In this document: piece by piece, positions 34,215-39,045 of the stretch
Layout of the letters: each line of letters begins with the position of its first letter
How positions within the stretch are numbered: position 1 is the first letter of the stretch
DNA from: an uncultured Acidimicrobiales bacterium
Lineage (GTDB): Bacteria > Actinomycetota > Acidimicrobiia > Acidimicrobiales > SZUA-35
Assembly: GCA_937981915.1 (NCBI GenBank)
Contig: CALJMD010000081.1
Coordinates: 1 to 41,282, forward strand
Length of the DNA: 41,282 bases
Reading direction: 5' to 3'
Program-made: the position numbers and the translations under genes
Notes under the pieces: model-generated
Databases searched by the model: none
Seen by the model: only the letters and a program-made list of their open reading frames with translations
What the model was told of the DNA's origin: nothing

Positions 34215-34230
34215 TACCGTTGAAGCGGTG
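34215..34230 (+). promoter_or_regulatory. Candidate leaderless promoter of the J-domain gene
   Basis: TACCGT (34215-34220) fits TAnnnT and lies 7 bases before GTG 34228. There is no Shine-Dalgarno sequence. A TTGACG at 34199-34204 is too close to act as its -35. Confidence 0.45.
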
Positions 34231-34962
34231 AATACAGAGACGGCGGGCGCCGTTGTGGCTGAGCTGGAAATCTGTCATTCTCGTCCCATCGCCCCCACGC
34301 GCCGGATTGCGCTCGGTAGCCGGGATTTGCCTTGTGACCCTGCTCCCGGTGCCGGTGGCTTGCTGCTTGTTGGCATCGTGGCCAACGTGGCGTCTGAGAT
34401 CGAGCCCGAGCTGCGGGAAGACTTGGTGACCGTGATGGACCGGCTGAGTGCCGGTCGCAAAGTGATTCAGCCAACTGTTCGGCACCGCTATCAGATCGAC
34501 CAGGTTGGTCTCACGGTGTCTCGCCAGCGGTTGCTGAACGGCCCGAGTGGGCTTGAGTTCGACTTCGACGACCGCAACGCCAGAGCTGTCCAGCTGGCCT
34601 TGGGGGCGGTCTATGCCGCTGGTACGTTGCCTCGGGCAGCGAAAGCCGCCGTCTTTGACGGGTTCCAGAAGGCTCTGGTGTGGGATCGACCGGTTGATTC
34701 GGCCTTCATTGCCGTTGTTATGGGTGGCCGCTCGATTGACATTGGTGGGCTTCGAGCCTGGAATGACCCTGTCGGTTGGGCGCTCGACACGTTGGGTATC
34801 GATGGGAAAGCCGATGAGGCCCCGTCAAAGCGTGTGGTGCAACGAAAGTTCCGTTCGCTGCTGCGAGACGCTCACCCCGACCATGGTGGTCACGATGAGG
34901 CGGCGGCAGCTCGGATAGCGGAATTGAGCGAGGCTCGACGGATTCTGTTGGCCACCGACTAG
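34228..34962 (+). CDS. Protein with C-terminal J domain
   Basis: The 244 residues end in a J-domain-like segment ('RKFRSLLRDAHPDHGGHDEAAAARIAELSEARRILL') with the HPD tripeptide at 216-218, which activates Hsp70 ATPase in DnaJ proteins. The rest is unfamiliar: 'ALGSRDLPCDPAPGAGGLLLVGIVANVASEIEPELREDLVTVMDRLSAGRKVI' and 'GLTVSRQRLLNGPSGLEFDFDDRNARAVQLALGAVYAAG'. There is no Gly/Phe or zinc-finger region, so it is not a standard DnaJ. It may recruit DnaK to one client. GTG start beside a -10 element. The sequence has no membrane helix of convincing length. Confidence 0.75.
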   Translation: MNTETAGAVVAELEICHSRPIAPTRRIALGSRDLPCDPAPGAGGLLLVGIVANVASEIEPELREDLVTVMDRLSAGRKVIQPTVRHRYQIDQVGLTVSRQRLLNGPSGLEFDFDDRNARAVQLALGAVYAAGTLPRAAKAAVFDGFQKALVWDRPVDSAFIAVVMGGRSIDIGGLRAWNDPVGWALDTLGIDGKADEAPSKRVVQRKFRSLLRDAHPDHGGHDEAAAARIAELSEARRILLATD

Positions 34963-34997: not shown

Positions 34998-35027
34998 TTG
35001 CCTTGTCGAAGGTTGTGGAGGGCATAG

Positions 35028-36293
35028 GTGTCTGAGTTAAACACCGAGGCCGAAGGTGGCGGCCCCGGACCAGAACAGTACAACGATCCGATATACGCCG
35101 AGAGTGTGTTGAGGCGATTGGCCAGTCTGCGAGGTCGTGGCCTGACGGCTGAACAGATCTCGCATCGCATTGCTTTGACGCACCCCGAGCGTCCAGGCGG
35201 CGGAGCCTGGTCCCCCGTGACTGTCGGTCGAATGATCGAACTGGTGGATTCCGATGCAACTGGTCGGATCGCTCAGCCTCCGCCCACTCCGGTTCGCTCC
35301 TCACCCCCGCCGGTCCGTGCTCCTTCTGTCGCCCCTCCTGTTGCTTCCCGTCAGCCGCCCAGAAGGCAGGCAGAGCAGCGGTTACCTAGGTCGACCGAGC
35401 CCGTAGAGCCGGGTGGCGTGCGTCGCCGGGTGCCTGCACCTGCCGTCGATATGCATGATGCTGGACGGACGTCACGAGCTGGCTGGTTGCTTGGCGCTGC
35501 CACCATGGCGTTGGTGGTAGGAATCGCCACGACACTGGCTTGGACGCTGGGCTTGTTCGAAGACGACTCGGGGGTTTTGTCCAGCGAACAGGATGCGGCC
35601 TCCAGCGGCGGCGACGCCGACTCGAATGAATTCGAAGACGCCTCCGACGCCTTTGATGCATTGGCGTCGGAATTGCCGGGGGAGCCTTCCTCGTCCGACG
35701 ATGCAGCGGATGAAGACAAGTTCATCATACGAATCGAACCTCCGGCCGATGAAAGCGACGGTGGTGTGGCCCCGGCGACGGCGACGATTCGCAACGACGG
35801 CAAGTTGCATGTGGAGGGGGCCTTTGCTTCGGAGTCCGACGCCGACAACTTCGTGGCTCGGGCGGGTGAAGTCTTTGGCCCGGACAACATTGTGTCGGCC
35901 TATCTGATCAACCCGGATGCTCCTGAACCAACGGTGTCTGATGTGGCGTTGGACAAGCCGGTTTTGTTCAAGTCCGGATCGGCCGAGATTGACCCGGAGT
36001 ACATTCCGTTCCTCGAGGCGTGCGGCGACGTATTGAAACTGAATCCGACGATCGTTATGTCGATTTCGGCCTACACCGATTCGCAGGGGCCGAGCGAGTT
36101 CAACCTGGAGCTGTCGCAGGAGCGAGCGAATGCCATCGTCGAGTTCTACCGCACACTCGAAATCGATGATTCGCAGCTTGTCGGTGTCGGCCTGGGCGAA
36201 GAAGCGGCGTTCGCTGACAACAGCACCGACGATGGTCGGCAACAAAACCGACGGGCCATGCTGCAGTTGATGAACATCATGGGTGAGGGCTGA
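35028..36293 (+). CDS. HTH-like/transmembrane/BON-like/OmpA-domain envelope protein
   Basis: The 421 residues form an unusual chain. An N-terminal segment, about 21-72, resembles the helix-turn-helix 'recombinase' module ('LRRLASLRGRGLTAEQISHR...GGAWSPVTVGRMI'). A Pro/Arg-rich linker (about 82-140), one membrane helix (about 152-176) and an acidic linker follow. A BON-like repeat ('ATIRNDGKLHVEGAFASESDADNFV', about 246-295) leads to a C-terminal OmpA domain (about 300-418) with the peptidoglycan-binding stretch 'SAYTDSQGPSEFNLELSQERANAIV' and 'DGRQQNRRAML'. BON plus OmpA recalls mycobacterial OmpATb/ArfA. The HTH end would be cytoplasmic and the OmpA end outside. GTG start with GGAGGG. Its 3' end overlaps the MFS gene by 17 bases. 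Confidence 0.85.
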   Translation: MSELNTEAEGGGPGPEQYNDPIYAESVLRRLASLRGRGLTAEQISHRIALTHPERPGGGAWSPVTVGRMIELVDSDATGRIAQPPPTPVRSSPPPVRAPSVAPPVASRQPPRRQAEQRLPRSTEPVEPGGVRRRVPAPAVDMHDAGRTSRAGWLLGAATMALVVGIATTLAWTLGLFEDDSGVLSSEQDAASSGGDADSNEFEDASDAFDALASELPGEPSSSDDAADEDKFIIRIEPPADESDGGVAPATATIRNDGKLHVEGAFASESDADNFVARAGEVFGPDNIVSAYLINPDAPEPTVSDVALDKPVLFKSGSAEIDPEYIPFLEACGDVLKLNPTIVMSISAYTDSQGPSEFNLELSQERANAIVEFYRTLEIDDSQLVGVGLGEEAAFADNSTDDGRQQNRRAMLQLMNIMGEG

Positions 36294-38581: not shown

Positions 38582-38611
38582 TGGCGTCGGCCCGGCGGCC
38601 CTAAAACTACA

Positions 38612-38644
38612 AAGCGGAGGCCCCTACAGTCGAGGCCCCCGCTT
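38612..38644. terminator. Bidirectional hairpin terminator between nifU and mscL
   Basis: AAGCGGAGGCC (38612-38622) pairs with GGCCCCCGCTT (38634-38644) with one mismatch and an 11-base loop. Read on the minus strand it is followed by a short T run (GTAGTTTTAG), suited to ending mscL transcripts. It sits between the two convergent stops. Confidence 0.7.
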
Positions 38645-38694
38645 GAAGTAAGTCAGTCCGAGACCAAACCCGGACTAGTTGCTCTGTCCGAAGA

Positions 38695-39045
38695 TCAGCG
38701 GCTCCGGAGAGCGTCCCGAATTTCGGTCAGCAGAGCCTGATCCGGCGTTTGGGCCAGTTCGGTGCTGGCACCGGCGCGAGCCAGTGACTTCACGATCATG
38801 AAGACAACCCAGGCCATGATGACAAAGCTGATGAGAGCGGCCAGCATGGCTCCGAGCGGAATGCCGGACGGGGCCCAGTCGGCGAAGGTGTCGCCGTCGG
38901 GGATGAATCCGGCCTTGCCGACCAGCGACAAGATTACGTTCACGACCGATTCGACTACCGGCGCGAAGGCCAGGGCCAGAATCAGACCGACGGCAATGGG
39001 AATAACGTTGAACTTCTCAAGGAATTCCCTGAATTCTTTAAGCAT
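38695..39045 (-). CDS. mscL: MscL-family mechanosensitive channel (short form)
   Basis: Membrane channel that opens under high tension to release solutes on osmotic downshift. The 116 residues start 'MLKEFREFLEKFNVIPIAVGLILALAFAPVVESVV', the MscL N-terminal helix and pore helix, followed by an outer loop ('FIPDGDTFADWAPSG'), a second helix ('LGAMLAALISFVIMAWVVFMIVKSL'), and the C-terminal 'LLTEIRDALRSR' helix. It is shorter than typical MscL, and the pore-helix sequence departs from the common Gly-rich pattern, so gating threshold may differ. AGGAGG 7 bases before ATG 39045 fixes the start. Confidence 0.85.
   Translation of the reverse strand: MLKEFREFLEKFNVIPIAVGLILALAFAPVVESVVNVILSLVGKAGFIPDGDTFADWAPSGIPLGAMLAALISFVIMAWVVFMIVKSLARAGASTELAQTPDQALLTEIRDALRSR

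Follow-up and report, generated by a model that had tools for sequence, protein, structure and literature searches.

A recombinase-type helix-turn-helix domain joined through a membrane helix to BON-like and OmpA-like domains in one genus of Acidimicrobiales

Can a protein that is expected to hold the cell wall from the outside carry a module of DNA-binding type on the inside, and what would such a module contact there? The question is raised by an open reading frame encoding 421 residues at positions 35028–36293 of the forward strand in a 41,282-nucleotide stretch of DNA from an uncultured Acidimicrobiales bacterium, hereafter the window. The gene (35028..36293, +) begins with a conserved GTG codon, the six intact family members, that of the window included, align from the start codon, and a Shine-Dalgarno-like GGAGGG (35017..35022, +) can be read from the sequence 5 nt 5′ of the GTG; among the five remaining intact members, most also have GA-rich sites 5′ of the aligned start. 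From its N-terminus the protein comprises a three-helix domain, a disordered linker, one transmembrane (TM) helix, an acidic linker, a BON-like half-domain and an OmpA-like domain. Mean pairwise identity among the six intact sequences, that of the window included, is 0.18 in the N-terminal tail, 0.49 in the helix-turn-helix (HTH) domain (residues 23–76), 0.27 in the inner linker, 0.30 in the TM helix, 0.26 in the outer linker, 0.54 in the BON-like region and 0.68 in the OmpA-like domain. Because the N-terminal domain retains 0.49 identity against about 0.26 in the linkers, it is a conserved module and no chance resemblance, and the HTH–TM–OmpA build is both real and unusual.

The earlier note on this locus had proposed that the N-terminal segment resembles a recombinase-type HTH, and profile searches with residues 23–76 (35094..35255, +) support this, the predicted fold being compatible with it. 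Pfam scanning of the whole protein recognised the OmpA-like domain alone, with no HTH match at the N-terminus. In the full-length AlphaFold2 (AF2) model, whose mean pLDDT is 50.5 and whose quality falls off beyond the domains, helices span residues 21–36, 41–51 and 63–78; the fold search was run instead with a model of the isolated N-terminal domain, computed from a six-sequence alignment, in which the HTH fold suggested for checking by AlphaFold is predicted as three helices at a pLDDT of 86.3 and a pTM of 0.72. Furthermore, a six-orthologue profile of the domain, searched blindly over 298 genomes of Acidimicrobiales at a threshold of E 0.001, returned 14 non-orthologue matches, and all 11 that were inspected proved to be serine recombinases (best E 2.7e-9), matched over their C-terminal DNA-binding domain. 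In the family’s own genomes the blind search likewise ranked two serine recombinases as the best non-orthologue matches (E 3.7e-4 and 0.0022), followed by a few weaker matches unrelated to recombinases.

Pfam family PF07508 is weakly matched by five of the six members (best E 0.0025), the window domain remaining below the curated cut-off (12.0 bits versus 21.1), and profile–profile alignment with hhalign scored the HTH profile against a recombinase profile at 94%, versus at most 9% in 100 column shuffles; the recombinase set used there had been pre-filtered with a loose motif, a mild bias that leaves the blind search as the stronger test. Foldseek placed the Bxb1 serine recombinase (integrase) in its top rows at a non-significant E of 0.32, and VIA-align Z-scores for the HTH model were 8.9 for a small terminase, 6.9 for Pax-6, 6.1 for DosR and 5.5 for a serine integrase; since such Z-scores fit many small HTHs, fold comparison alone is no proof of a recombinase link. 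Searches of the HTH profile against PDB sequences yielded weak matches at most, the best being topoisomerase V and DosR at E 0.04 to 0.09. As far as sequence can tell, the N-terminal HTH shares descent with the serine-recombinase DNA-binding domain, corresponding to the N-terminal half of PF07508, with which it has in common its profile, the three-helix HTH fold, a G-loop and a Trp ahead of the recognition helix. The window protein itself, however, is no recombinase: Pfam scans found no resolvase (catalytic) domain, the HTH is fused to a TM helix and an OmpA-like domain, and within the family it has an invariant PGGG loop, near-neutral charge and a score below the Pfam cut-off.

The HTH is followed by a Pro/Arg-rich linker of variable length (residues 77–150; 35256..35477, +; pLDDT ~30), predicted to be disordered and cytoplasmic, and by the single TM helix (residues 153–174; 35484..35549, +), which is modelled as a helix by AF2 and reaches a hydropathy peak of 1.85 (best segment 154–172). 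By charge count the stretch behind it, residues 175–229 (35550..35714, +), is an acidic linker, assigned to the extracytoplasmic side and, like the inner linker, disordered in the AF2 model. In the window protein K+R number 20 before the TM helix versus 13 after it, and D+E 16 versus 53. As there is one hydrophobic segment, with 150 residues ahead of it and a strongly acidic stretch behind, the sensible reading of this predicted topology is N-in, C-out, with the HTH in the cytoplasm and the OmpA-like domain outside, as the earlier note had supposed. The 150 residues preceding the sole TM helix also rule out a signal peptide, and thereby the export of the N-terminus that the same note had named as fatal to its proposal.

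On the outer side, the OmpA part of the BON–OmpA assignment made in the earlier note stands firmly and the BON part weakly. Residues ~250–300 (35775..35927, +) constitute a BON-like half-domain, modelled by AF2 as beta-beta-alpha-beta over residues ~250–294. The Pfam BON model matches none of the six orthologues, and the profile of this region matched no BON structure in the PDB; hhalign against the true BON repeats of paralogues gave a probability of 47% (E 2e-4), with a score of 24.8 versus at most 15.0 in 60 shuffles. The label ‘BON-like’ is thus fair, and a BON domain proper is no more than a candidate. The OmpA-like domain (residues 313–408; 35964..36251, +), in contrast, matches PF00691 at E 5e-14 over the full model length 1–98 (52.9 bits versus a cut-off of 27.2), and the match is present in all six orthologues. 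Its PDB matches include ArfA/Rv0899 (2lbt/2kgw/2l26, E 1e-10 to 1e-15) and Acinetobacter baumannii OmpA, in which D271 and R286 are the Asp and Arg that bind diaminopimelate (PMC6572160). D351 and R366 of the window protein align with these two residues and with the TD..G and LS..RA of solved homologues, and they are invariant in six orthologues. Judging from what is known of the family, the domain should grip peptidoglycan, as the earlier note had predicted for the outside end.

ArfA (OmpATb, Rv0899) is a membrane-anchored Mycobacterium tuberculosis protein with BON and OmpA-like parts (PMC6151718). The window protein follows the same plan of a TM anchor ahead of a C-terminal OmpA-like peptidoglycan-binding domain; the middle part, weakly recognisable as BON-type, amounts to one divergent half-domain. 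In ArfA the anchor lies within a 72-residue N-terminal domain, while in the window protein the TM helix comes after 150 residues that include an HTH; the N-terminus is thus indeed unlike that of OmpATb. The window protein belongs with the OmpA-like wall proteins on the ArfA/OmpATb plan and carries a new inner module. Full-text literature searches found no published account of a protein that combines an HTH with an OmpA domain.

Protein searches of 61 related genomes added orthologues from six other members of the genus (G010, G008, G007, G003, G005 and G002), and a contig scan placed two orthologues in Acidimicrobiales MAGs. The survey of relatives that had been suggested for this architecture finds it only in one clade of one Acidimicrobiales genus, in 7 of 12 genomes; a phylum-wide search with the HTH profile returned no further cases among the 16 candidates scored per genome, a depth at which distant cases could escape. 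In a tree of the BON–OmpA parts of 60 proteins, the seven HTH proteins form one group (support 100/99), and among the proteins of their sister group (joint clade 98/93) the place of the HTH is taken by a DUF937-like region, by a long linker or by nothing at all; this is most simply read as a single gain of the HTH. A paralogue from the same genome (G000:C192:13-807; L003 / L061) shares the inside-outside plan of cytoplasmic domain, TM helix, BON and OmpA, with DUF937 replacing the HTH, and across the paralogues of this genome and genus the inner module matches DUF937 (PF06078) at a best E of 6.7e-24, or DUF2510 weakly. A shared outer anchor is therefore fitted with different inner modules. Further OmpA proteins (L127, L137 and L067) include some with a DUF2510-like N-terminus and one with an outside CHRD domain, indicative of wide module shuffling, and at G011:C41:138914-139165 (L032 / L060) an open frame retains no more than the C-terminal ~84 residues of a relative of the window protein, apparently a gene remnant.

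These relationships bear on the plainest account of the protein, namely an ordinary ArfA/OmpATb-like BON–OmpA wall protein whose cytoplasmic N-terminus has little effect. The outer part does follow ArfA, one member of the sister group (L016) has no N-terminal domain at all, and, while five of the six orthologues are intact, the G008 copy appears to carry a one-base frameshift that falls in the HTH, past helix 2 and ahead of the PGGG loop (L010 / L038, G008:C8 about 38600-38760). The frameshift may be an assembly error rather than a real loss, however, and the 54-residue HTH domain is under selection, since its mean identity is 49% against ~26% in both linkers. We consider this account improbable.

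If the inner domain is under selection, what does it contact? The closest HTH relatives all belong to DNA-binding enzymes, and the three-helix fold resembles that of DNA-binding HTHs such as those of the small terminase, Pax-6 and DosR. One could thus imagine a transcription regulator anchored to peptidoglycan, whose HTH binds a promoter from the membrane and whose BON–OmpA part serves as the sensor. Transmembrane regulators such as ToxR and CadC combine an N-terminal HTH, one TM helix and an extracytoplasmic domain, and with many HTH types they are widespread (PMC10269533); the window protein similarly has an HTH and a TM helix in one chain, with predicted N-in topology and a cytoplasmic HTH. 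It differs in its OmpA-like domain outside and in an HTH that Pfam models miss at their cut-offs, whereas the regulators of that survey were found with Pfam models; the survey’s main text mentions neither OmpA nor peptidoglycan (PMC10269533).

The properties of the HTH itself lean slightly against DNA binding. Its net charge in six members is +1, +1, +2, +2, +1 and -3, versus +1 to +9 in ten recombinase relatives (Mann-Whitney p 0.006, for rows that are related and not independent). Recombinases retain basic residues where helix 2 begins and in the loop, and in the window family these have been replaced. Conservation is lowest at exposed positions of the recognition helix (29%) and highest in the HPxxPGGGxW loop (71%), a pattern opposite to the one that selection for a fixed operator would produce. 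Consistently, the seven upstream regions show no shared palindrome or conserved operator, and no conserved gene neighbour was found across the HTH clade. The adjacent gene at 34228–34962 (+) of the window encodes a J-domain protein (C-terminal DnaJ match at E 4e-4, below the cut-off) with a conserved N-terminal part; 37 of 41 related genomes from across the order have one copy each, so that it is probably a core gene, and it is ruled out as a partner, adjoining the HTH gene in G000, G008 and G010 only. A changing recognition helix could, on the other hand, reflect changing operators. A transmembrane transcription regulator is on balance no more than a candidate role for this protein, and an unlikely one.

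The same anatomy would also suit a tether between chromosome and wall, in which the HTH and the Arg-rich linker would keep a loose grip on DNA or bind it at a recurring site and so link the nucleoid to peptidoglycan. Basic residues are indeed present on the cytoplasmic side of the window protein, and the Arg-rich cytoplasmic linker of some members could add DNA affinity, but the charge of the HTH is low and in two orthologues acidic residues outnumber basic ones over the entire cytoplasmic region (K+R versus D+E of 17 versus 19 in L013 and 19 versus 31 in L014), which makes a tether quite improbable. The broader proposition, of a membrane-borne HTH that binds DNA and so puts promoters under direct control of the wall, through its state or position, or fastens the chromosome to it, is one we regard as possible but doubtful.

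HTH-containing membrane proteins can also act through protein contacts, as in RodZ, which binds MreB via its cytoplasmic domain (PMC6052060). A comparable adaptor, connecting MreB with the wall machinery by way of an HTH, would have the same order of parts, namely cytoplasmic HTH, TM helix and extracytoplasmic part. RodZ, however, has an HTH_25 rather than the recombinase type and lacks an OmpA domain, and HTH_25 (PF13413) matches neither the HTH domain nor anything in the window’s genome. MreB-level matches (E <1e-70) occur in 4 of the 12 genomes of the genus (G002, G004, G009 and G011), a patchy distribution within one genus; of the seven genomes that encode the HTH protein, six lack them, among these the window’s. 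The only match in the window’s genome is a 638-residue frame at E 4.5e-21, which falls well short of what a true MreB scores and is probably DnaK. The window’s genome is 88% complete, and the absence repeats in relatives that are 90–95% complete. The lack of MreB from most genomes with the HTH protein thus mostly refutes this alternative, which we regard as exceedingly unlikely.

We therefore favour, with confidence somewhat short of even, a wall-anchored adaptor whose HTH has been repurposed for docking. In this model, a single-pass N-in membrane protein would hold peptidoglycan outside through its OmpA-like domain, and inside, the recombinase-related HTH would hang from a long flexible linker; the outer part, being fixed, would position the inner domain at a definite site along the membrane for the docking of a cytoplasmic partner. 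Low charge, lost basic residues and a variable recognition helix hint that this partner may be a protein rather than DNA, even though every close relative of the HTH comes from a DNA-binding enzyme. Over evolution the inner module (HTH, DUF937, DUF2510-like or none) would have been swapped on a common BON–OmpA anchor.

Genomes of the host genus hold 9 to 21 OmpA-domain matches each, with interchangeable inner modules for which we found no studied function. If the inner HTH does bind DNA, the protein would provide a physical link, within one polypeptide, from the cell wall to the chromosome or to a promoter; if it does not, the DNA-binding domain of a mobile-element enzyme would have been reused to equip a wall anchor on its inner side.
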